Source: Candidatus Woodwardiibium gallinarum
GTDB taxonomy: Bacteria; Bacillota; Clostridia; Oscillospirales; CAG-382
DNA: 64,000 nucleotides
Assembly (NCBI GenBank): GCA_904419545.1
Contig: CAJFRY010000017.1
Span: 1-64,000 of the forward strand
Direction: 5' to 3'
A program made the translations under genes and the position numbers. Below the pieces are notes generated by a model that saw only the letters and a list, made by a program, of their open reading frames with translations, ran no database searches and was not told the DNA's origin. This document shows, one piece after another, positions 1 to 11,519 of this stretch. The first letter of the stretch is position 1. Each line of letters begins with the position of its first letter.

Positions 1-25
1 TTTCGCAGAGTTCAGCACTCTGCGA
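1..25. repeat. Left recombination site (inverted copy)
   Basis: A near-perfect palindrome with 8-bp arms (CGCAGAGT / ACTCTGCG) around a 5-bp centre TCAGC. Bases 1-22 are the exact reverse complement of 1459-1480 and of 1503-1524. The centre is asymmetric, so this copy is oriented opposite to the two right-hand copies. Short palindromic arms around an asymmetric centre are what a tyrosine-recombinase core site looks like. Sequence left of base 1 is not visible, so further copies could exist upstream. Confidence 0.8.
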
Positions 26-39
26 TCACTTATATAAAT

Positions 40-68
40 AAAATATCACAAAAATTACGAAAAAGCAA
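40..68 (-). promoter_or_regulatory. Leftward promoter inside the cassette
   Basis: On the minus strand there is a -35 TTGCTT (63-68) and a -10 TATTTT (40-45) with a 17-bp spacer. It reads leftward out of the cassette through the left recombination site. If the segment inverted, it would read rightward into the sipW operon. A second leftward -35 TTGACA lies at 233-238, but its -10 spacing is less clear. Confidence 0.45.
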
Positions 69-170
69 TACCTTTTAGAGAAAAAATTAAAATAATTTAT
101 ATTTTTCTTCCCCAAAAGAGAGTCCTGCCGTCCGACGATACAAATTTCAGACCTGTTTTTTTCAACAATA

Positions 171-190
171 GCCGTCAGAATTTCCGTCCC
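171..190 (+). repeat. Imperfect direct repeat flanking the recombinase gene (copy 1)
   Basis: GCCGTCAGAA at 171-180 recurs exactly at 1390-1399 just after the recombinase stop codon. The following ten bases are also similar (tttccgtccc versus atcccgtcac). Direct repeats on both sides of an integrase gene could be arm-type sites bound by its N-terminal domain. That role is inferred. Confidence 0.4.
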
Positions 191-261
191 TTTGTATTTT
201 ACCATAGAACAATTATCCCCGCGATACACAAATGTCAAATAATATATAGGAGGAAATCGAA

Positions 262-1383
262 ATGCCAAGAAAAGGCGAAAACATTTACAAGCGCAAAGAC
301 AAACGTTGGGAGGCCCGGTATGTCAGGGAATATCGTCCGGACGGCACACCGAAATACGGTTACTGCTACGGCAAAACCTATCGTGAGGCCAAACAAAAGG
401 TAATGCAGGCCAAGGCCGATATACTCGCCTGCAGACCCGTACCGCCGGCTCCGCACAAACGCCGTTTTGCATTCTACTGCGACGAATGGCTGCAGCTCAA
501 CCGCAGCCGCATCAAAGAATCCACTTATGTAAAATATCGCGGGATGCTCGACAAGCATGTCAAGCCCAGGCTCGGCGGTTATCTGGTACAGTCGCTTTCT
601 TCGGCCGTCATTGAACAATTCGGACATGCCCTTTTGTATGAACAGTCGCTTGCTCCCAAAACGGTAAAAGACATCCTGACCATGCTGCATGCAATCGTCC
701 GATACACCTGCAAATGCTTTTCGGAGCCGCTGCCGATGGTCGAAATTGTATACCCCAAGGTTCCCAAACAGGAAATGCGCGTACTGACAAGAGAGGAACA
801 GGTTCGTTTTGTCCAGTATCTGCTGGAGGATATGGATGCCTGCAAATTCGGAACGCTGCTGGCCCTGCTCACCGGCATGCGGATCGGTGAAATCTGCGCC
901 CTGCGCTGGGAAAATGTTTCGCTCACGGAGCAGACGATCAAAGTCAACGCGACGATGCAGCGCCTTCGAAATTTTGACGGGGAAGCAGCCGGAAAAACAA
1001 AGGTCGTGATCAGCGAGCCGAAAAGCGACTCCTCGACAAGAATCATTCCGCTGACCGATTATACCGTAAAGCTCTGCAATCGTGTGTGGTGCGGCAACCC
1101 CGACGCTTTCGTCCTGACAGGAGAAACCGGCAGCTATATCGAGCCCCGCGTGATGCAGCAGCATCTGAAAAAGTATACGGCGGCCTGCAGTCTTGCCGGC
1201 GTCCGCTTCCACACGCTGCGGCATACTTTTGCGACCCGCTGTGTGGAAGTCGATTTTGAGATCAAATCTTTGAGTGAAATCCTCGGACACTCCAGCCCCC
1301 GCATCACGCTGGAGCGTTATGTGCATTCTTCATTCGAACTCAAACGCAGCAATATGAACAAGCTCGCCGCTATCGGATACTAA
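262..1383 (+). CDS. Tyrosine recombinase / integrase
   Basis: A 373-residue site-specific recombinase. The basic N-terminus (about residues 1-50, KRKDKRWEARYVREY region) resembles the AP2-like or arm-binding domain of Tn916-type integrases. It is followed by a SAM-like core-binding domain and a C-terminal catalytic domain. Catalytic residues can be seen: R207 in GMRIGEIC, the H-x-L-R-H box near 317-321, H343 in LGHSS and the nucleophile Y353 in ERYVH. The ATG at 262 follows a strong AGGAGG. The gene sits between inverted copies of a palindromic 22-bp site with no other mobile-element gene visible, which suits an invertase that flips its own segment better than an integrative element. The neighbouring operon encodes surface proteins, a usual target of phase variation. 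An integrase remnant of a lost element is the alternative. Confidence 0.9.
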   Translation: MPRKGENIYKRKDKRWEARYVREYRPDGTPKYGYCYGKTYREAKQKVMQAKADILACRPVPPAPHKRRFAFYCDEWLQLNRSRIKESTYVKYRGMLDKHVKPRLGGYLVQSLSSAVIEQFGHALLYEQSLAPKTVKDILTMLHAIVRYTCKCFSEPLPMVEIVYPKVPKQEMRVLTREEQVRFVQYLLEDMDACKFGTLLALLTGMRIGEICALRWENVSLTEQTIKVNATMQRLRNFDGEAAGKTKVVISEPKSDSSTRIIPLTDYTVKLCNRVWCGNPDAFVLTGETGSYIEPRVMQQHLKKYTAACSLAGVRFHTLRHTFATRCVEVDFEIKSLSEILGHSSPRITLERYVHSSFELKRSNMNKLAAIGY

Positions 1384-1417
1384 AGTATCGCCGTCAGAAA
1401 TCCCGTCACCGATGAGC

Positions 1418-1446
1418 AAAGCCCCCTTGTTTTTCGGGCGTTTTTC
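1418..1446 (+). terminator. Weak terminator after the recombinase gene
   Basis: A short GC stem (GCCC / GGGC) with a loop and the run GTTTTT lies 35 bp after the recombinase stop. The stem is short, so termination may be inefficient and readthrough into the sipW operon is possible. Confidence 0.35.
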
Positions 1447-1458
1447 CCTCTGAATTGA

Positions 1459-1480
1459 CAGAGTGCTGAACTCTGCGAAA
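1459..1480. repeat. Right recombination site 1
   Basis: An exact inverted copy of bases 1-22. The site TATATAAA lies about 9 bp beyond it (1489-1496). In mirror image the left site is likewise followed by TTATATAAA (30-38), so the conserved unit extends past the palindrome. Confidence 0.8.
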
Positions 1481-1502
1481 TTGTTCTTTATATAAATTCC
1501 TG

Positions 1503-1524
1503 CAGAGTGCTGAACTCTGCGAAA
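1503..1524. repeat. Right recombination site 2
   Basis: A second copy of the 22-bp site, identical to 1459-1480 and in the same orientation, 44 bp downstream. Recombination between the two right copies would delete 44 bp. Recombination of either with the left copy would invert the recombinase segment. Confidence 0.8.
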
Positions 1525-1637
1525 TACGGCGGGCAAAGACAGGACTTCCGCAATTGAAAATGCGCCTCGGAGACGCAAAAGAAGGCTCCGGCAATGCCGC
1601 TTTCCCGCTTATACTGTCGTTCCGCTGCAGTTGGTAT

Positions 1638-1666
1638 TTAGTATATGCCGTAATGATTGCTACAAT
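1638..1666 (+). promoter_or_regulatory. Possible promoter of the sipW/TasA-like operon
   Basis: A good -10 TACAAT (1661-1666) has a poor -35 TTAGTA (1638-1643) at 17 bp. It lies outside the invertible segment and would give a roughly 45-nt leader to the signal peptidase gene. The poor -35 suggests low basal expression or dependence on another promoter. Confidence 0.4.
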
Positions 1667-1717
1667 TCATTTTCATACGGCCGATGCTCTGCCCGAGCTT
1701 ATGGAGGAAAAAGGAAA

Positions 1718-2263
1718 ATGCACATGCCAAAAGCGGCAAAACATGTCTGGAACATCATCAGCACCGCACTTGTCGTTCTGGTCGTGCTGTTTGCCGTTGT
1801 ACTGCTCGGCGTGCGGCTGTTCGGCATACGGGTTTATTCGATTCTGTCCGGCTCGATGGAGCCGGAATATCCGGTCGGCGCATTGATTTATGTGAAGGAA
1901 ATCGATCCGTCCGAGGTCGAAGTCGGCGACGTCATCACCTATGTGCTGCCGAACGAAACGCCGGCAACCCACCGTGTCGTGCGCATCGATGCGGAAAACC
2001 GGCACTTTTATACCAAAGGCGATGCAAACGAAGCCGAGGACGGCGCGCCCGTCTATTTCGAGAACCTGATCGGCACGCCGGTATTCAAGCTGCCGTACCT
2101 CGGATATGCCGCGCATTATATCCAGCATCCGCCCGGTATGTATATCGCCCTCGCGGCCGGCGCCGTTTTGCTCATCGCCGTTTTTCTGCCCGATCTGTTC
2201 AAAAAACGCAAAAGGAAAAGCGGAACTCTCCCCGCCGAAGACGGGGACACGAAGCAGGGGTAA
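1718..2263 (+). CDS. sipW: SipW-type signal peptidase I
   Basis: A 181-residue ER-type signal peptidase. It cleaves signal peptides of TasA-like fibre proteins at the outer face of the membrane. It has an N-terminal membrane helix (about residues 14-35), the nucleophile Ser46 in SGSMEP and His85 in ATHRVV, which form the Ser-His dyad of the SipW/archaeal class in place of the Ser-Lys of ordinary bacterial enzymes. A GDAN motif follows, and a second membrane helix near the C-terminus ends in a basic tail. ATG 1718 is chosen because GGAGG lies about 10 bp upstream; ATG 1724 is an alternative. It is the first gene of an operon whose next products carry SipW-dependent signal peptides, so its substrates are very probably encoded beside it. 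Confidence 0.93.
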   Translation: MHMPKAAKHVWNIISTALVVLVVLFAVVLLGVRLFGIRVYSILSGSMEPEYPVGALIYVKEIDPSEVEVGDVITYVLPNETPATHRVVRIDAENRHFYTKGDANEAEDGAPVYFENLIGTPVFKLPYLGYAAHYIQHPPGMYIALAAGAVLLIAVFLPDLFKKRKRKSGTLPAEDGDTKQG

Positions 2264-2993: not shown

Positions 2994-3566
2994 ATGCGCA
3001 CAAGGAATACGGTCACAGCAATCCTGATGTTCGTTCTCGTGCTCAGCTTTACAATCGGCGGCACTCTGGCCTGGCTGACCGATACGACCGAGCCCGTCAC
3101 GAATACCTTTACCTACGGCGATATCAACATCACTCTTGCCGAGACGACAGAGGTATATAAAATGGTTCCCGGGAACAGCATCTCCAAGGACCCGTCCGTA
3201 ACCGTCGAGAGCGGCAGCGAGGCCTGCTGGCTGTTCGTCAAGGTCGAGGAATCGGCAAATTTCAAAGACTTTATGACATATACGATTGCAAGCGACTGGA
3301 CTCAGTTGGCCGGCGTGAACGGCGTGTATTACCGTGAAGTAAACGCCGTAACGGAAGACACGAAATTCGATGTCCTTGCAAACAATCAGGTACAGGTATC
3401 GGACACGGTCACCAAGGAAGCGCTGACCGCGCTGACCGAGGCCACGTACCCCACCCTCACCTTCACCGCCTACGCGGTGCAGAGGGACAACATCGAAACC
3501 GCTGAGCAGGCCTGGGAGATTGCGAATCCGCAGCCTGCCGACCCGTCTCAGAACCCGGGCGCATAA
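2994..3566 (+). CDS. TasA/camelysin-like fibre protein 2
   Basis: A 190-residue secreted protein closely similar in design to the preceding gene. A basic start (MRTRN) and a hydrophobic core are followed by GGTLAWLTD and NTFTYGDINI. It shares with fibre protein 1 the segment SISKDPSVTVESGSEACWLF (compare the related stretch ending in CWLFVKVE there) and TLTFTAYAVQ near the C-terminus, so the two are probably tandem duplicates. The start follows AAAGGAG with 8-bp spacing, 53 bp after the previous gene. It is predicted to be a secreted beta-sandwich subunit and has no sorting signal of its own. Confidence 0.82.
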   Translation: MRTRNTVTAILMFVLVLSFTIGGTLAWLTDTTEPVTNTFTYGDINITLAETTEVYKMVPGNSISKDPSVTVESGSEACWLFVKVEESANFKDFMTYTIASDWTQLAGVNGVYYREVNAVTEDTKFDVLANNQVQVSDTVTKEALTALTEATYPTLTFTAYAVQRDNIETAEQAWEIANPQPADPSQNPGA

Positions 3567-3629: not shown

Positions 3630-4439
3630 ATGAAAAAGAAGCTCCTGAGCATCGGCCTCGTCGCGGTCATCGCGATTGCGGCCATCGCCGGCGCGTCGCT
3701 TGCGTATCTGACCGATACGGACGAAGCCGACAATGTGTTCACCATCGGCAATATCCAAATCCAGCAGAACGAGCAGCAGCGCAATGCAGACGGCACGGCG
3801 CTTGAAGCCTTTACGGACGACAAGTTGCTTATGCCCATCGTCGGCTCCGCGCAGGGCGAGAAGGACGAATGGGGCATGCCGGTCGCCGCGAACTATGTGG
3901 ACAAGATCGTCACCGTGAAAAACACCGGCGAACAGCCCGCTTACATCCGCACCTTCGTTGCGGTTCCCGCGGCCACGCAGACGGGCGAGGACGGCAACCC
4001 GACCTTCAATGCGCTGCACTGGAACTACGGCAACCGCGTCGATCTTACGGGCAACGGATTATACAATGACGGCGGACAGGAGAACTGGAACCGGGACTTC
4101 CTGAAGTGGGATTGGGAAAGCGCCCAAACCGTCGGCGAATTTGTAGAAGGCGGCGTCAAATACGCCCTTGTGCTCTTCAACTATACGGAAGCGCTGGCGG
4201 CCGGCGCCGAGACCGCCCCGATCATCAGCGGCCTCTATCTGGACAAGGCCGTGAACTTTGACGGCACCGATTATATCGACCCATACGGAAACAAGATAGA
4301 TAATTTCATTGAGGACGACGGCAAAGTCCACATCTACTGCTACACGCAGGCCGTGCAGGCCGCCGGCTTTGATACCGCCGCGGAAGCGTTTGACGCCGCA
4401 CAGCTTCCCTATCCCTACTTAGAGACCCCTGCCAATTAA
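3630..4439 (+). CDS. TasA/camelysin-like fibre protein 3
   Basis: A 269-residue secreted protein. MKKKLL and a hydrophobic core lead to GASLAYLTDTDEADNVFTIG, the SipW-type processing and mature-start signature. The middle has KNTGEQPAYIRTFVAVP, a motif shared in form with fibre proteins 4, 5 and 6 (x-N-T-G-x-x-x-A-[YW]-[IV]-R), probably a conserved beta-strand pair. The length and C-terminus (YCYTQAVQAAGFDTAAEAFD) match the following gene, so 3 and 4 form a second paralogue subgroup. AAAGAGG precedes the start. It is an operon member with a 63-bp gap to the gene before it. Confidence 0.82.
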   Translation: MKKKLLSIGLVAVIAIAAIAGASLAYLTDTDEADNVFTIGNIQIQQNEQQRNADGTALEAFTDDKLLMPIVGSAQGEKDEWGMPVAANYVDKIVTVKNTGEQPAYIRTFVAVPAATQTGEDGNPTFNALHWNYGNRVDLTGNGLYNDGGQENWNRDFLKWDWESAQTVGEFVEGGVKYALVLFNYTEALAAGAETAPIISGLYLDKAVNFDGTDYIDPYGNKIDNFIEDDGKVHIYCYTQAVQAAGFDTAAEAFDAAQLPYPYLETPAN

Positions 4440-4485: not shown

Positions 4486-5244
4486 ATGAAGAAAAAAATC
4501 ATCGTGCTCTGCCTGGTCGCCTGCCTTGCGGTCACGGCGGTTGCCGGCGCAACTCTGGCGTATTTCACCGCCGAGGATTCCGCCGATAACGTGTTCACCA
4601 TGAAGGGCATTCAGGTTGAAATCAACGAAGACTTCGACCCCGAAAACGCCGAGCTTCTTCCCGGCCTGGACATCAACAAGGACGTTTGGGTCACCAATAC
4701 CGGCACCACCGACGCATATGTCCGGGTACACATTGCCATCCCCGCCGCGCTGGACGACGGAGACCCCTCCTTCAACGCCAGCAACAACTTCCTGCACTTC
4801 AACTTCACCGAGGACTCCGTTCAGCCCGGCCAGTGGAGCTGGACGCCCGAGATGAACGAGGACGTCGGCTACCGCGGGAACGGTGAGGGCAACTGGAACT
4901 ATTACACCGCCACGATAGACGGCATCGACTACGGCGTTTACGTCGTCACCTACCGCACTGCGCTCGCCGCCGGTGAGCAGACCGCCACGACTGCGCTGGA
5001 TAAGGTGTATGTCGACAAATCGGTCGAGTGCGTATGGAACGCGGAAAAGGAATGCTACGAATACACCGACACCAAGGGCAACATCATCACGCCCGACAGA
5101 TTCGCCGACGCCAACGGCAATATCAAGATCAAGGTCTTTGCCGAAGCCGCACAGACCGCGACCTTTACCGACGCCTATGATGCGCTCAACACCGCCTTCG
5201 GCACCCCCGGCTCCGACGGCTATGTGGCGCCGTGGAATCGGTAA
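4486..5244 (+). CDS. TasA/camelysin-like fibre protein 4
   Basis: A 252-residue secreted protein with an N-terminus like the other fibre subunits (AGATLAYFTAEDSADNVFTM) and the internal VTNTGTTDAYVRVHIAIP motif. It has the same late signature as fibre protein 3 (KVFAEAAQTATFTDAYDAL). It is predicted to be exported by Sec and cleaved by the SipW encoded upstream. It is the last of the first block of four subunits. A 241-bp gap with strong RNA secondary structure follows before the next subunit, which may set its expression apart. Confidence 0.82.
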   Translation: MKKKIIVLCLVACLAVTAVAGATLAYFTAEDSADNVFTMKGIQVEINEDFDPENAELLPGLDINKDVWVTNTGTTDAYVRVHIAIPAALDDGDPSFNASNNFLHFNFTEDSVQPGQWSWTPEMNEDVGYRGNGEGNWNYYTATIDGIDYGVYVVTYRTALAAGEQTATTALDKVYVDKSVECVWNAEKECYEYTDTKGNIITPDRFADANGNIKIKVFAEAAQTATFTDAYDALNTAFGTPGSDGYVAPWNR

Positions 5245-5485: not shown

Positions 5486-6058
5486 ATGAATATGAAAAAG
5501 AAGCTGTTTGTATGTGCGTTCATCGTCATATGCCTGTCCATAGTCGCATACGGAACCGCCGCTTACTTCTCGTATGAGGATACGGCGACCAACGTCATCA
5601 CAGCCGGAGACGTGAAAATCGACCTCGAGGAATGGGCCGTTTCCGAGGACGGCAGCGGACTCGTGCCGTTCACGGAGGCAGTAGACGTCCTTCCCGGAAC
5701 AGACGTTTCAAAGATCGTTCAGGTCAGGAACACCGGCGGACAGACCGCGTGGATTCGCATTTCGCTCGACGAATCCATCCGTCTGGCCGGGGGAGTCGAG
5801 GGCGAAGCGGACACGTCACTGATTTCCTATGATCTGAACACTGACGCCTGGACGGAAAAGGACGGGTACTATTATTACAACACCGCTCTGGAGCCGGATG
5901 AAACCACCGAGCCGCTGTTCACGAAGGTGACGTTTTCGGCGGCGATGAGCAACCTGTACCAGCACAGCAAGGCCATCATCAACGTCGGCGCGCAGGCCAC
6001 ACAGAAGGCAAACAACGGGCAGACCGTGTTTGAGGCCGCCGGCTGGCCGCAGGAATAA
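5486..6058 (+). CDS. TasA/camelysin-like fibre protein 5
   Basis: A 190-residue secreted protein. MNMKKK, a hydrophobic segment and YGTAAYFSYEDTATNVITAG give a slightly diverged SipW-type signal (S for T after the aromatic pair, I for F later). It contains VRNTGGQTAWIRISLDE, matching the NTG-x-x-A-[YW]-[IV]-R motif of its paralogues. The chosen ATG at 5486 has GAAAGGAAA upstream; earlier in-frame starts would prefix sequence lying in the hairpin region. The stop is 14 bp before the GH20 gene, whose ribosome site overlaps it (TAAGGAGG), so the two are probably translationally linked. Confidence 0.8.
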   Translation: MNMKKKLFVCAFIVICLSIVAYGTAAYFSYEDTATNVITAGDVKIDLEEWAVSEDGSGLVPFTEAVDVLPGTDVSKIVQVRNTGGQTAWIRISLDESIRLAGGVEGEADTSLISYDLNTDAWTEKDGYYYYNTALEPDETTEPLFTKVTFSAAMSNLYQHSKAIINVGAQATQKANNGQTVFEAAGWPQE

Positions 6059-6072
6059 GGAGGTAAGGGACA

Positions 6073-9000
6073 ATGAAACAAACCTTAGCAGTACTTCTGT
6101 CCGTGGTAATGCTGTTCGGCTGTCTGCCCGTAACGGGATTCCCTGTCTCCGCCGGCAGCGACAGTGCGTTTATGCGCATTGTTCATCTTGACTGCGGCAG
6201 AAAGTATTTTTCTGCGGATGAAATCAAAGGCGTCATCGATATGGCGGCCGATAACTCTTATACGCATGTCGAACTGGCGGTCGGCAACGACGGCCTGCGC
6301 TTCCTGCCCGACGATATGTCCGTCTCGGTCAGCGGGTATGCGTATGAAAGTGACGCCGTGGCAGACGCCGTGCGGCAGGGGAACACAAACTACTACGACG
6401 ACCCGAACGGCAACGCGCTGACCGAAAGCGAGATGGACGAAATCCTTGCCTTCGCAGCCGAAAAAGACGTCGGGATCATCCCTCTGCTCAATACGCCGGG
6501 CCATATGAACGCGCTGATGGATGCCGGTGAATCTCTAATCGGAGAAAAGCTGTCCTACTCCACTTCCGAGCGCACCATCGACGTGACGAACGAAACCGCC
6601 ACTGCGTTTACGCTCGCGGTGCTGGAGAAGTACATCCGATACTTTGCAGGAAAAGGCTGCACCCATTTCAACCTCGGCGCCGACGAGTACGCGAACGATA
6701 TTTCTTCCTCCGGCTTTAGCGCGATTCAGTCCGCCGGTTTGTATGACGACTACATCGAGTATGTGAACAGCGCGGCGGCCATTGTCAAGGAAGCCGGAAT
6801 GACGCCGATGGCCTTCAACGACGGTATTTATTACAACAGCCAAGCCTCCTACGGTACGTTTGATCCCGACATTGAAGTCTGCTTCTGGACCTCTGGCTGG
6901 AGCGGCTACAGCGTAGCTCCGGCAAGCCTGCTTGCCGGAAAAGGACACAAGATCATCAACACCAACGACGCCTGGTACTACGTCCTCGGACGTTCATCCG
7001 GCGGATATTCGCTGAACAGCGCGCAGAGCGGCGTCCGAAACACCACCTGCACTGCTGTTCCGGGCAACGACAGCAGCGACGTAGCGCCCGTCGGCTGTAT
7101 GCTCTGCGTCTGGTGCGACGACCCGAGCGTTTCATATACCGACGCCGAGTGCAGCAATATCGGCGGTCTGCTGGCCGGCCTTGCCGAAAACAACGCGGAC
7201 TACTTCACCGCCCCCGAAACCGACAGCGAGATTACCCTTACGGATGATATGACAGGTGTCTCCGTCATCGCGGCGAACCTGCAGTCACTGACGGTGCAGC
7301 CCGTAGCCCCGCCCGAGATGACGGGCATACGGCACAGCATCGCCTATGACATCACCCTTACCGACGCGTCCGGCGCGTATACGGGCGCAGCGAAAGTCGC
7401 CATCCCCGTTCCCGACGCGTGGAACGCCGCGCCGCAACACCTCCGCGCGTATGTGCAGGAGTCCGATGGCAGCTATTCCCGCATCCCCGGCGCGTATGCC
7501 GACGGCATTTATACCGCCTCCGTCCCCCATTTCTCTGTCGTCGTTCTGGCGGAGGCCGACCCGAATGCACACGTGGAGGAAACGATCGCCCTTACGGTAG
7601 GCGAAAGCCTCACGCTCACTGATTCAAGCGGCAATTATAAAGGCACCTATACCGGAGACGGTTTGGATACGGGCATTGCGGACGTCACTGTTGAAGGTCA
7701 GGATGCAATCGAAGGCACTACGATCTATTCAGAAGCAAACAATGTCACATGCTCTGAACTTCTGAACCAGAACAGCAGCAATTGGATTGAAACAGACTAT
7801 TATTACAAAGTGGATAATGATTACTACCCTGTCTATGTAAAACGTTACGGTGTGTTTTGGACCACTTACACTTACACTTACGCTTACTTTAACAGTAGCG
7901 ACTATGAAACCATATCAACTCAAAGCACTAATTCACCAGGAAATACGAACGTAGATATAACTCTTTACAATCAGACCGAACATACTGATCCGCAGCCGGC
8001 TTTTACCGAAATCACTTTTACCGGCAAGTCGATAGGCGAGACCTCGGTCACCGTCGGCAATACAAGGTATACCATCCTTGTCACCGCAAAGAAGGTGACG
8101 CTGGAAATGTATGTCGGCGAAACGGCAAGCTTTGCAGACAGCTCTACGGCGTATGAAATCAACGGTTCCGGCGTAAGTGTCAGACTGGACGGCGGGAAAA
8201 TCATATTCACCGCATCAGCAGCCGGTACGGCAGCCGTCGCCACCACCTCCGCCGTTTACAGCATCACGGTAAAGGAACCCGGTTTTACTGCGCCTTCGGA
8301 AATTATCGCAGACCACGCCACGACAACGGTGCTGCATGGAACGGACCCGATCACTTCCACGCAATTGGAGAACGGGGCATTCGTCTCCACGCTGGCACGA
8401 AATGATTTTACAGCGAACAATCAGACGTATATCTTCTGGAAAGCGCGCGTCATCGACCGCGCGCAGACCGGCGGCGGCCAGATGTTTGACAATTATAACG
8501 GTTCAAGCGGAACAGACGCCGGAAGCGACAATGAGTGCATGACCTACGAAGGCAAAGCCTACGACGTCGACGCGCTGAAATATGAAAACGGTCATTACTA
8601 TTTCCGCGTTGCCGATACCGGCGACTGGAAGCTGCTGCGCTGGACAGCATATACAGGCCACGGAGCTTATCCGACAACCGGGCATCAGCTTATCTTTTAT
8701 TATATGATTCAATATGTAAAGGACGATAAAGCCTCCATCAATACCTCCGACTGGGGCGACTGGGGTTCTGATCTTTATACCATTCGCTTCGAATTGTATG
8801 AAGTTATCGGTAATGATTTCAGCGACGCTGAGCGGCTTGCCAGCAATTCCCATGGATTTTCAAACGGCATACAGGTAATTACATCACTCCACGACCCCGC
8901 ATATGAAGTCGTGCGGTCCGAAGTCGATTACAATTCTTCCCGTTATGACGACAAAGTCTATAACGGACAAATCACAGACGTGCCCGCCGTAGAAGCAGGG

Positions 9001-10212
9001 AGAGCCTGCACCGTCCGCGTCTATATCCGCAGGAAGGCGCTCTTTTCGGTAGAATATGACTGGCTGAACGCGCCAGCCTCAGCCACGCTGCCGTCAGGCG
9101 CTTCCGATCTTGCGGAAAATACGGTTTACAGCGTCGATTCAAACTACACAAACCAAACCGTTGTATACGAAGGCGCTTACACCTACACTTTCTCCGGCTG
9201 GTATCTGAACGAGGAATTAACAAGACCGGCCGGAAAAACGCTGACAGTCACAAGCGACGTTATTCTGTACGGCCGATGGACGCGGAAATTAAGCAATACT
9301 ATCACCATTACCGCAGAGGACGCCGAAAAGGTCTATGACGGCAGCGAGCTGACCGCCCCCGGCTTCACCGTTACCTATCAGGGCCAAGTCGTTCCTCTCA
9401 TCGACGGAAAATACACCATTGCCGGCGAGGAACTGACAATCACCGCGGACATCGCAGGTTCGCAAACGAATGTGGGGACAGCGGTGAATGCGGTCAGCAA
9501 TGTACAGATACGCAGCGATAACACCACGGAATATAAGTATACCACCCGCAACGGTACGCTGACGGTATACCCCAAAATCACAGTGGAATACTACAAGGAT
9601 ACCCTTGACGCCGACAACAAGCTGGAATCAGAGAACTATCAGACAACCCTTTCACCGGAGCACAACGGCGAACTTCTCCGGGAAGGCGATTCCGTCACCC
9701 TGTCCGTCGAATGGCTGAACATGCATCATCCCGACGGATACCGAGCCGGCGTTCAGCAGGGCACGACGCCTTACACCGTCACAAGCGCGAACGAGCAGGT
9801 CATTCGGGTACTCTATCTGCCCGCATCCACAAGCCTTACGATCTACAAGGAAGGAGCAGACACCCGTGACTGGAATCAGACGTTCCTGTTCCGGGTGACA
9901 GGCGAGGACGGCGTGGACGTGACAGTCACCGTCCACGGCAATTCCGCTGTCACCATCGACGGGCTGACCATTGGCAAGGCGTACACCGTGACCGAGCTTA
10001 CCGAATGGTCGTGGCGGTACGGTCAGCAAAAGTTCACCGCCGCTACGGGGCTGTCCTGCACTGCACCTGAAACCGGCGGCATCACCGTAACGCTGACCGC
10101 AGACGAAAACACAAACAGCGTGACGTGTGCGAACACCCGCACGGTACCGTACTGGCTAGACGGCGACAGCTTCAGGATCAACGTCTTTACCAAACCACAG
10201 GCACAGAGTTAA
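6073..10212 (+). CDS. Secreted multidomain GH20 beta-N-acetylhexosaminidase-like protein
   Basis: A 1379-residue secreted protein with a signal peptide (about residues 1-27, ending near PVSA). Residues about 30-430 form a GH20 TIM-barrel: LNTPGHMNA and the catalytic Asp204-Glu205 pair in NLGADEYAND are visible. GH20 enzymes release N-acetylhexosamine, or lacto-N-biose in some lines, from glycans. Later parts look like beta-sandwich surface modules. An InlB-type repeat ends in FSGWYLNEEL and ILYGRW (about 1040-1075). A YDG/MBG-like module (EKVYDGSELTAPGF) follows, then a Cna-B-like module near the end (SLTIYKEGAD to NSVTCANTRT). No LPxTG motif or C-terminal helix is present, so retention at the surface would need another protein. 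The region about 7640-7980 is poorer in GC and rich in Tyr/Asn. Being embedded among fibre subunits suggests a fibre-borne enzyme. Confidence 0.85.
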   Translation: MKQTLAVLLSVVMLFGCLPVTGFPVSAGSDSAFMRIVHLDCGRKYFSADEIKGVIDMAADNSYTHVELAVGNDGLRFLPDDMSVSVSGYAYESDAVADAVRQGNTNYYDDPNGNALTESEMDEILAFAAEKDVGIIPLLNTPGHMNALMDAGESLIGEKLSYSTSERTIDVTNETATAFTLAVLEKYIRYFAGKGCTHFNLGADEYANDISSSGFSAIQSAGLYDDYIEYVNSAAAIVKEAGMTPMAFNDGIYYNSQASYGTFDPDIEVCFWTSGWSGYSVAPASLLAGKGHKIINTNDAWYYVLGRSSGGYSLNSAQSGVRNTTCTAVPGNDSSDVAPVGCMLCVWCDDPSVSYTDAECSNIGGLLAGLAENNADYFTAPETDSEITLTDDMTGVSVIAANLQSLTVQPVAPPEMTGIRHSIAYDITLTDASGAYTGAAKVAIPVPDAWNAAPQHLRAYVQESDGSYSRIPGAYADGIYTASVPHFSVVVLAEADPNAHVEETIALTVGESLTLTDSSGNYKGTYTGDGLDTGIADVTVEGQDAIEGTTIYSEANNVTCSELLNQNSSNWIETDYYYKVDNDYYPVYVKRYGVFWTTYTYTYAYFNSSDYETISTQSTNSPGNTNVDITLYNQTEHTDPQPAFTEITFTGKSIGETSVTVGNTRYTILVTAKKVTLEMYVGETASFADSSTAYEINGSGVSVRLDGGKIIFTASAAGTAAVATTSAVYSITVKEPGFTAPSEIIADHATTTVLHGTDPITSTQLENGAFVSTLARNDFTANNQTYIFWKARVIDRAQTGGGQMFDNYNGSSGTDAGSDNECMTYEGKAYDVDALKYENGHYYFRVADTGDWKLLRWTAYTGHGAYPTTGHQLIFYYMIQYVKDDKASINTSDWGDWGSDLYTIRFELYEVIGNDFSDAERLASNSHGFSNGIQVITSLHDPAYEVVRSEVDYNSSRYDDKVYNGQITDVPAVEAGRACTVRVYIRRKALFSVEYDWLNAPASATLPSGASDLAENTVYSVDSNYTNQTVVYEGAYTYTFSGWYLNEELTRPAGKTLTVTSDVILYGRWTRKLSNTITITAEDAEKVYDGSELTAPGFTVTYQGQVVPLIDGKYTIAGEELTITADIAGSQTNVGTAVNAVSNVQIRSDNTTEYKYTTRNGTLTVYPKITVEYYKDTLDADNKLESENYQTTLSPEHNGELLREGDSVTLSVEWLNMHHPDGYRAGVQQGTTPYTVTSANEQVIRVLYLPASTSLTIYKEGADTRDWNQTFLFRVTGEDGVDVTVTVHGNSAVTIDGLTIGKAYTVTELTEWSWRYGQQKFTAATGLSCTAPETGGITVTLTADENTNSVTCANTRTVPYWLDGDSFRINVFTKPQAQS

Positions 10213-10230: not shown

Positions 10231-10863
10231 ATGTACAACCCCAAAAACAGTACGCAGCACAGACCTGGCAGGCAACCGAGCAGCCGAAAAGCGTTGTTTG
10301 CACTTGTCTCGATCCTTGTTCTCGTCTTTGCCGCAGCCGGCGTGACAGTCGCCTACCTGCAAACGCAGACCCCGCCGCTGAAGAACGAATTTACACCGGC
10401 CCAGGTGTCCTGCGAAGTAGAGGAAACGTTTGACGGTTCCGTCAAACGCAGCGTCGCCATTCGGAACACAGGAGACACCGACGCATTCATCCGCGTGACC
10501 GTCGTCGCGAACTGGGTGAAGGCTGACGATGAGGGCAATGTTACATCGGTCCACGCGCAGCAGCCTCAACCCGGCACGGATTACACGATTCAATGGGCTG
10601 ACGATTTCGGCGCCAACTGGCTTCAGGGTGGCAGCGACTTCTACTATTACAAAATCGCCGTCGATCCGGAAGAATCCACAGCGGTTCTGATTGCAGAATG
10701 CACGCCGAAAGCGAACCGTGCGCCCGAAGGGTACACGCTCGCAGTGGAAATCGTCGCCTCCGCCATTCAGGCATCGCCCGAAGCGGTTGCAGAGGAATAC
10801 TGGCACATAAGCGTTGAAAACGGCGTAATTACCGCCGTTCAAGGGGGAGGGGGCAACGAATGA
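10231..10863 (+). CDS. TasA/camelysin-like fibre protein 6 (divergent)
   Basis: A 210-residue secreted protein with a longer basic N-terminus (about 24 residues, RPGRQPSSRK) before the hydrophobic core and a changed processing region (GVTVAYLQTQTPPLKNEFTP). It keeps IRNTGDTDAFIRVTVVANW, the shared internal motif of the fibre subunits. The distinct head suggests a special position, for example a tip, base or assembly factor such as TapA, but this is inference. It starts 18 bp after the GH20 gene with GAAGGGAG upstream, and overlaps the next gene by four bases (ATGA), a sign of translational coupling. Confidence 0.75.
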   Translation: MYNPKNSTQHRPGRQPSSRKALFALVSILVLVFAAAGVTVAYLQTQTPPLKNEFTPAQVSCEVEETFDGSVKRSVAIRNTGDTDAFIRVTVVANWVKADDEGNVTSVHAQQPQPGTDYTIQWADDFGANWLQGGSDFYYYKIAVDPEESTAVLIAECTPKANRAPEGYTLAVEIVASAIQASPEAVAEEYWHISVENGVITAVQGGGGNE

Positions 10864-11519
10864 AACGCAAAATTTTCCGGCTGATCTGTTCCGCTGTACT
10901 CCTTGTGGCGCTGGCGCTCAATGGCCTTACGGCCGGAGCGGCGAGCAACGTCACCTATGACGGCAGCGCGCAGTCATTCATTTTTGCTCCCGGAAGCACG
11001 TATTCCCCGACCGACCTGTTTACCGATTTCAAGGATGTTATGCCCGGTGACAGCATCACGCAGCAGATCGTCATTGACAACGACGTAGAAAAGCACGTGA
11101 AGATTAAGCTCTATATCCGTTCCGACGGCGCGCAGGAGGGGTCTGAGGCGTTCTTGTCGCAGCTCCGGCTGAACGTGCGGCAGGACGGCGATTCCGAGCT
11201 GTTCGACGCACCCGCCGACGAAACGGCGCAGCTTTCCGACTGGGTGTATCTGGGCACGGTCTACTCGGGCGGCGAAATCACGCTGGACGTGACGCTGGAC
11301 GTGCCGCTCACGCTGGACAATACGTTCCAGCAGGCCATCGGGTATCTGGACTGGTGCTTCAAGGTCGAGGAACTGCCGGTGGAGCCTGATGACCCGAAGC
11401 CGCCGCAGACCGGCGACAGGTTCAATCTGCCCTTTTTCGTCATATTGGCAGGCATGAGCGGACTCGCGCTGCTCCTGCTGCTGGTTGTCAAACGCCGCAG
11501 CGGAACACAGGAGCACTGA
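10860..11519 (+). CDS. Wall-anchored protein with PPQTG-D sorting signal
   Basis: A 219-residue protein with a signal peptide (cleavage near AGAASNVT), a beta-rich mature domain of about 150 residues and a C-terminal sorting signal: PPQTGDRFNLP, a hydrophobic helix and the basic tail KRRSG. PxTG-D is a sortase motif variant common in Clostridia. DFKDVMPGDSITQQIVIDND resembles the opening strand of the fibre subunits, so it may be a wall-linked anchor or adaptor that tethers the fibre. It is the last gene of the operon and starts inside the stop of fibre protein 6. No sortase gene is in the window. Confidence 0.78.
   Translation: MKRKIFRLICSAVLLVALALNGLTAGAASNVTYDGSAQSFIFAPGSTYSPTDLFTDFKDVMPGDSITQQIVIDNDVEKHVKIKLYIRSDGAQEGSEAFLSQLRLNVRQDGDSELFDAPADETAQLSDWVYLGTVYSGGEITLDVTLDVPLTLDNTFQQAIGYLDWCFKVEELPVEPDDPKPPQTGDRFNLPFFVILAGMSGLALLLLLVVKRRSGTQEH

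Follow-up and report, generated by a model that had tools for sequence, protein, structure and literature searches.

A cassette of ~1.5 kb at the start of the window (the whole 64,000-nt stretch of Candidatus Woodwardiibium gallinarum DNA that was analysed) lies upstream of an operon of the biofilm-matrix type and carries its own recombinase gene together with an outward promoter. We consider it probable (roughly 0.8) that this is a self-contained phase-variation cassette that controls the SipW operon by promoter inversion. The reading is built on the anatomy of the cassette, its conservation in a family of relatives, an inversion between related genomes and a fork in the assembly at one cassette end, all of which were observed. 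In the proposed mechanism, the recombinase, which we infer to be the acting enzyme, would bind two inverted core sites and probably also tandem CCGTC arm sites flanking its own gene, and strand exchange in the 5-6 bp spacer of the core sites would invert ~1.5 kb including the recombinase gene and the outward promoter. In the assembled orientation (recombinase gene toward sipW) the promoter would fire away from the operon and into a hairpin terminator at the left site, giving an OFF or low state; in the inverted form it would lie just upstream of sipW and drive the SipW/BsaA/M73/GH20 operon (ON).

Core sites, recombinase and downstream operon

The left core site L (CGCAGAGT-TCAGC-ACTCTGCG at 4-24) occupies positions 1-24 of the forward strand, with contig C17 starting at the first shared base. 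It is matched on the reverse strand by an inner right site, R1 (1457-1480, a 22-nt exact inverted match), and by an outer right site, R2 (1501-1524, a 23-nt exact inverted match, to which the contig-fork junction described below corresponds), 1459-1480 and 1502-1524 being exact reverse complements of 1-22 and 1-23, respectively. The 41-nt arms 1-41 and 1484-1524 are 85% complementary. The palindrome pattern has six matches in the window (three sites, both strands) versus 0.11 expected in shuffles of the window, which excludes a chance origin of the sites. Genome-wide, with up to two mismatches allowed, the core pattern was found at the three window sites and in one copy truncated at the end of contig C21, and a search across the genome for trans targets with the same core site gave none beyond these. 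R2 also has a TTTATATAAA stretch resembling one inside the left site, and a third core site, in direct orientation 32-104 bp from one member of the pair, is present both in the window (1457-1524) and at L046, L047, L048, L050 and L095. An Rfam search of both flanks returned no match, and viral contigs yielded no close relative.

Between the sites lies a gene for a 373-aa tyrosine recombinase (262-1383, forward strand), preceded by a ribosome-binding site recognised by sequence (AGGAGG, 248-253, forward strand). The protein matches PF00589 (4e-23) and PF14659 (5e-10), which assigns it to the tyrosine recombinases and not to the serine invertase family, and the catalytic residues R207, K254, H317, R320, H343 and Y353 are present and invariant in 17 aligned sequences. 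The initial annotation had proposed a lone tyrosine recombinase enclosed by exact inverted palindromic sites, and both parts of that description hold, the exact matches being 22 nt for R1 and 23 nt for R2, with the domain matches and catalytic residues identifying the enzyme. Neither an excisionase gene nor a separate helper gene was seen next to the recombinase within the cassette. In the predicted structure (mean pLDDT 84) an N-terminal three-stranded sheet (strands E8-10, E16-24 and E30-37) and a helix (40-55) are followed by a SAM-like and a catalytic domain. The predicted sheet and helix are arranged as in arm-binding integrases; the Pfam arm domain gave no match in the window protein and matched 1 of 17 members at E 0.05. 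By fold and sequence, the closest solved structures are Tn1549 Int and lambda Int.

Tandem CCGTCA-N6-CCGTC motifs, read here as putative arm-type sites, flank the gene on the forward strand at 172-188 (CCGTCAGAATTTCCGTC) and, in the same direction, at 1391-1407 (CCGTCAGAAATCCCGTC). Among 61 loci, the motif was found upstream of the recombinase gene in 34 and just past its stop codon in 31, with ~0.5 expected for each, and its copies all run in one direction and are never reversed.

All genes of the downstream operon are on the forward strand. The first (1718-2263) encodes a SipW-like signal peptidase (TIGR02228 above cut-off), followed by SipW-dependent secreted proteins at 2314-2940 (TIGR04088 signal), 2994-3566 (M73/camelysin-like) and 3630-4439 (TIGR04088 signal, M73 only below cut-off), a BsaA-family SipW-dependent biofilm matrix protein (4486-5244, TIGR04090 above cut-off) and a BsaA-like SipW-dependent protein (5486-6058, below the TIGR04090 cut-off). 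A large surface protein of 1379 aa with a GH20 catalytic domain (6073-10212) and a further pair of secreted proteins, one BsaA-like (10231-10863, below cut-off) and the other an operon-end protein with a sortase-like C-terminus (PPQTGDR, a hydrophobic stretch and KRR; 10860-11519), homologous proteins to which occur in L049, L104 and L105, complete the operon. Five operon proteins have a TIGR04088 signal and one exceeds the TIGR04090 cut-off; with a SipW-type signal peptidase and SipW-dependent secreted substrates, the operon is of the SipW/TasA/BsaA matrix type. No paper on phase variation of SipW/TasA by inversion was found among open papers.

A family of cassettes in both orientations

Relatives of the recombinase with 35-75% identity lie in matching cassettes; one reference-genome scan gave 16 relatives (53-75% identity), and searches of the family and order added more. 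Inverted repeats were found at 51 of 65 loci (a set that includes a few duplicates) versus 15 of 638 (2%) mispaired upstream and downstream pieces of different loci, the repeats of these 51 loci being some 200-440 bp upstream of the start codon and 60-200 bp downstream of the stop codon. Repeats were present at 24 of 31 loci with tblastn scores of at least 200 bits and at 0 of 17 more distant integrases, and are thus a property of the recombinase clade. The 6-bp spacer is identical left versus right in 23/23 loci, a count somewhat favoured by the choice of these loci through repeat detection, and there are 16 different spacers among the loci. The inner half-sites differ between the two cassette ends in this set; identity of the left and right spacers is predicted by strand exchange within the spacer. 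The 1.5-kb spacing, promoter, arm motif and adjacency to a target are conserved across what is a wide, apparently undescribed family of switches in gut Clostridia, for which no paper was found among open papers.

Inversion is seen between L061 and L062, which come from a pair of genomes in the same genus and where a 1.48-kb cassette of 95.2% identity lies in clean opposite orientation, with flanks that are 92.7% identical over 5.3 kb on one side and 92.6% identical over 256 bp on the other, and with the breakpoints at the repeats. The recombinase gene points toward a homologous SipW operon at nine loci (the window, L042, L044, L047, L048, L049, L051, L056 and L116) and away from it at eight (L043, L045, L046, L097, L098, L099, L104 and L105). 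Near-identical loci from three genomes (L118-L120) all have one orientation and are uninformative, and a distant relative on Enterococcus raffinosus megaplasmids is in one orientation in all four strains, with no intraspecies flip seen. The initial annotation had suggested a self-inverting cassette with an outward promoter, to be sought in both orientations in related genomes; the nine versus eight loci and the L061/L062 pair support this, as do the identical spacers and, as described below, the conserved promoter and the assembly fork.

Other cassettes precede TetR-led operons or genes for a VWA-like giant protein, BspA-type LRR, cohesin/dockerin and FHA proteins, a T2SS ATPase or a sugar transferase. 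Cassettes at L065, L063, L132, L130, L126 and L124 lie upstream of T2SS-type ATPase/FHA operons and of trypsin-FHA, large repeat, BspA LRR and cohesin/dockerin proteins, which widens the range of surface systems that may be phase-variable. A TetR-type regulator gene comes first among the targets of many cassettes (L042 7358-7942, L043 915-1577, L045 4348-4944, L057 7308-7853, L058 5498-6133), and at L047 and L048 a gene for a small HTH protein takes this place; switching may thus work via a regulator. Distant homologues (~35% identity) with 17-25-bp inverted repeats precede WxL or accessory-Sec adhesin operons on Enterococcus megaplasmids (L214, L215, L217, L218 and L216, from E. raffinosus and E. 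gilvus).

Cassettes and flanks can differ in their degree of identity. L043 (1638-3112) and L056 (5743-7216) are 95.6% identical from site to site and 73.9% identical in the flank, with a homologous TetR flank on the opposite side, a pattern that in sequence resembles exchange or transfer of a cassette unit. Between E. raffinosus L214 and L217 the cassette is 78% identical and the flanks 98.7% and 88.7%. Cassettes on two contigs of one genome (L124 and L127 of G198) are 88% identical at unrelated loci with different neighbours. Cassettes thus seem to move as units. It is conceivable, though we doubt it, that they are natural exchange modules in which the recombinase, besides flipping a cassette, would trade it as a unit between a resident locus and incoming DNA, under control of the internal arm sites; the two inverted sites at the cassette's ends, whose spacer is specific to the locus, would make such exchange possible.

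Promoters, the contig break and alternative explanations

The outward promoter of the window lies on the reverse strand at 40-68 (-35 TTGCTT at 68-63, 17 nt, extended -10 TGaTATTTT with the hexamer at 45-40), where the initial annotation had placed a leftward promoter (-35 63-68, -10 40-45). By itself its score does not exceed chance (P = 0.3), and it is weaker than the copies in related cassettes. Its support comes from conservation in relatives: it is the positional homologue of the family promoter TTGnnn-17-TGnTATAAT. In an alignment of 23 cassettes this promoter, outward-facing and of the sigma-70 type, lies immediately inside the 5' site, with a spacing of mostly 17 nt between TTGnnn and TGn-TATAAT. 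An outward promoter scoring at least 11 was found in 68% of 50 cassettes, versus 4% for the opposite strand and 2% for shuffles. The left flank on contig C21 ends in a strong bidirectional hairpin abutting the left site (-22 kcal/mol, z -6.3), so that the outward promoter would, in the assembled orientation, fire into a terminator. Strong hairpins also lie 3' of the recombinase gene in L042 (z -5.3) and L056 (z -7.1), and would prevent transcripts of the recombinase gene from entering the operon. At the same place the window has a weak terminator-like element (1421-1446, forward strand); a terminator comparable to those of the relatives was rejected (z -0.2 versus -5.3 and -7.1).

Judged from sequence, the inferred design of the family would be OFF with the recombinase gene toward the operon and ON with the gene away from it, and the window in its sequenced orientation is likely OFF, which may mean low rather than silent. 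An OFF state had already been proposed for this orientation; the promoter design of the family speaks for it, and the weakness of the window's outward promoter together with a candidate promoter in front of sipW makes the assignment weaker. The accompanying view that the operon has only a poor promoter of its own was not confirmed: the leader has a candidate cassette-independent promoter, TTAGTA-17-TGC-TACAAT, on the forward strand at 1638-1666 (P = 0.04 by shuffles).

Window position 1 is a contig end (base 1 of C17, 80.6 kb, in a genome of 2.3 Mb and 69 contigs), which lay beyond the view of the initial annotation. Contig C21 supplies the left flank; it terminates in ...CGCCGTGGTTTGGATGACCACGGCGTTTTTCGCAGAGTTCAGCACTCTGC, and its last 23 nt are the first 23 nt of C17, an overlap that is the whole core common to L and R2. 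Comparison of 82 contig ends of the genome showed that three-contig junctions share exactly 99 nt, which gives an assembly graph k of 99, and a 23-bp repeat alone was rejected as the cause of the break since k = 99. With this k, a fork at the 23-bp site implies reads linking the left flank with both cassette ends and a cassette end with both flanks. This fork is indirect evidence that the sequenced population probably contained both orientations. Of the two sites, the assembly resolved the fork only at the right-hand one. That the fork comes after base 23 favours R2 as the recombining partner; R1 was rejected for this population, as a fork at R1 would share 22 bases. In the family, 11 of 30 cassettes have a contig end at most 600 bp away versus 1.6 expected (P ~1e-6), as expected if mixed orientations break assemblies.

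The break at the site could instead be an assembly accident that is uninformative on inversion, with the locus perhaps locked in this species. Other contig ends in the genome do overlap by less than k (51-94 nt), and coverage gaps likewise give such overlaps, but the overlap at this site, unlike those, reproduces the core exactly at either end, a coincidence estimated at <1e-5, and the left and right spacers are still identical; we regard an accident as quite improbable. The integrase-type enzyme, the high identity of the L043 and L056 cassettes within a diverged flank and the similar cassettes at unrelated loci of G198 would also suit a small mobile element (an IS or solo integrase) whose TIRs merely resemble inversion sites and whose two orientations are independent insertions. 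Such an element is extremely unlikely: L061 and L062 agree in both flanks and in both breakpoints, which fall at the repeats; the family conserves the spacing, the promoter, the arm motif and the adjacency to a target; and the assembly fork joins both cassette ends to one another.

A further alternative accepts that the cassette inverts and holds that sipW is transcribed mainly from its own promoter at 1638-1666, with inversion only modulating expression or mostly serving the recombinase. The candidate promoter has an extended -10 (TGCTACAAT, TGcTACAAT) at 17-nt spacing and scores better than the outward promoter of the window. However, no promoter better than chance was found in the site-to-sipW leaders of five relatives (L044, L049, L099, L104 and L105), the family retains the outward promoter and the cassettes adjoin surface operons. 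We therefore consider control from the leader unlikely, and prefer control of the SipW operon by promoter inversion.

Comparison with known systems and significance

Promoter inversion is well known. The classic example is the H segment of Salmonella (the fljBA flagellar switch), in which an outward promoter inside the segment is turned toward or away from a surface-structure operon by Hin, a serine recombinase acting with a Fis-bound enhancer. RecV of C. difficile targets several loci (the flagellar switch and cwpV) and is encoded outside the inverted segments; the cassettes share with it tyrosine-recombinase inversion near surface genes of Clostridia, and differ in that each carries its own enzyme. 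One report places the Hin gene inside its own invertible segment (PMC5903667), and in the window both the recombinase gene and the outward promoter are likewise within the invertible segment. Unlike Hin, the window cassette has a tyrosine recombinase with a predicted integrase-like N-terminal domain and putative arm sites. The initial annotation had regarded inversion of a recombinase gene along with its promoter as unusual, a view that does not stand given Hin and the at least 51 loci of this analysis. The same report describes a recombinase ORF inside a ~0.85-kb invertible segment with 14-bp imperfect repeats near a fimbrial locus of Providencia stuartii (PMC5903667). As described there, this is one gammaproteobacterial locus, whereas the present family numbers dozens of members and its palindromic sites measure 20-30 bp. 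Clostridial inverton group 139 with invertase group 35 also pairs Clostridia invertons with a tyrosine recombinase family, and is set apart from the cassettes by its recombinase, which is reported as nearby, not enclosed, and as non-regulatable (PMC11892184).

The enzyme resembles the Tn1549/Tn916 and lambda integrases in its core-binding and catalytic domains, and may also do so in a predicted three-stranded, arm-binding-like N-terminal domain. Unlike those systems, the cassette has paired inverted sites and no attP/attB arrangement, and no transfer, phage or excisionase genes were seen beside it. It mobilises no ICE or prophage, the recombinase being the only gene inside and the neighbour a surface operon. 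What is new is the tyrosine-recombinase version of the switch bearing putative arm sites, the breadth of the family and the SipW targets.

The median number of invertons per genome has been given as 3 in the Clostridia-like Firmicutes_A versus 8.5 in Bacteroidota (PMC11892184). Promoter inversion as a source of phase variation has been charted well in Bacteroides and less so in gut Clostridia. The family provides a simple signature with which self-contained switches can be searched for in assembled genomes, namely the recombinase clade, paired palindromic sites with identical spacers, the outward promoter and CCGTC repeats, and a practical lesson, that short-read assemblies break at such cassettes. 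It also names targets for switching: SipW/BsaA matrix operons, LRR and dockerin/cohesin surface proteins, WxL and accessory-Sec adhesin loci. The cassettes are a direct test case of an integrase-like recombinase with putative arm sites acting reversibly on paired inverted sites, and if whole cassettes are indeed exchanged between loci, this would distribute complete promoter switches to surface operons throughout Clostridia and Enterococcus.
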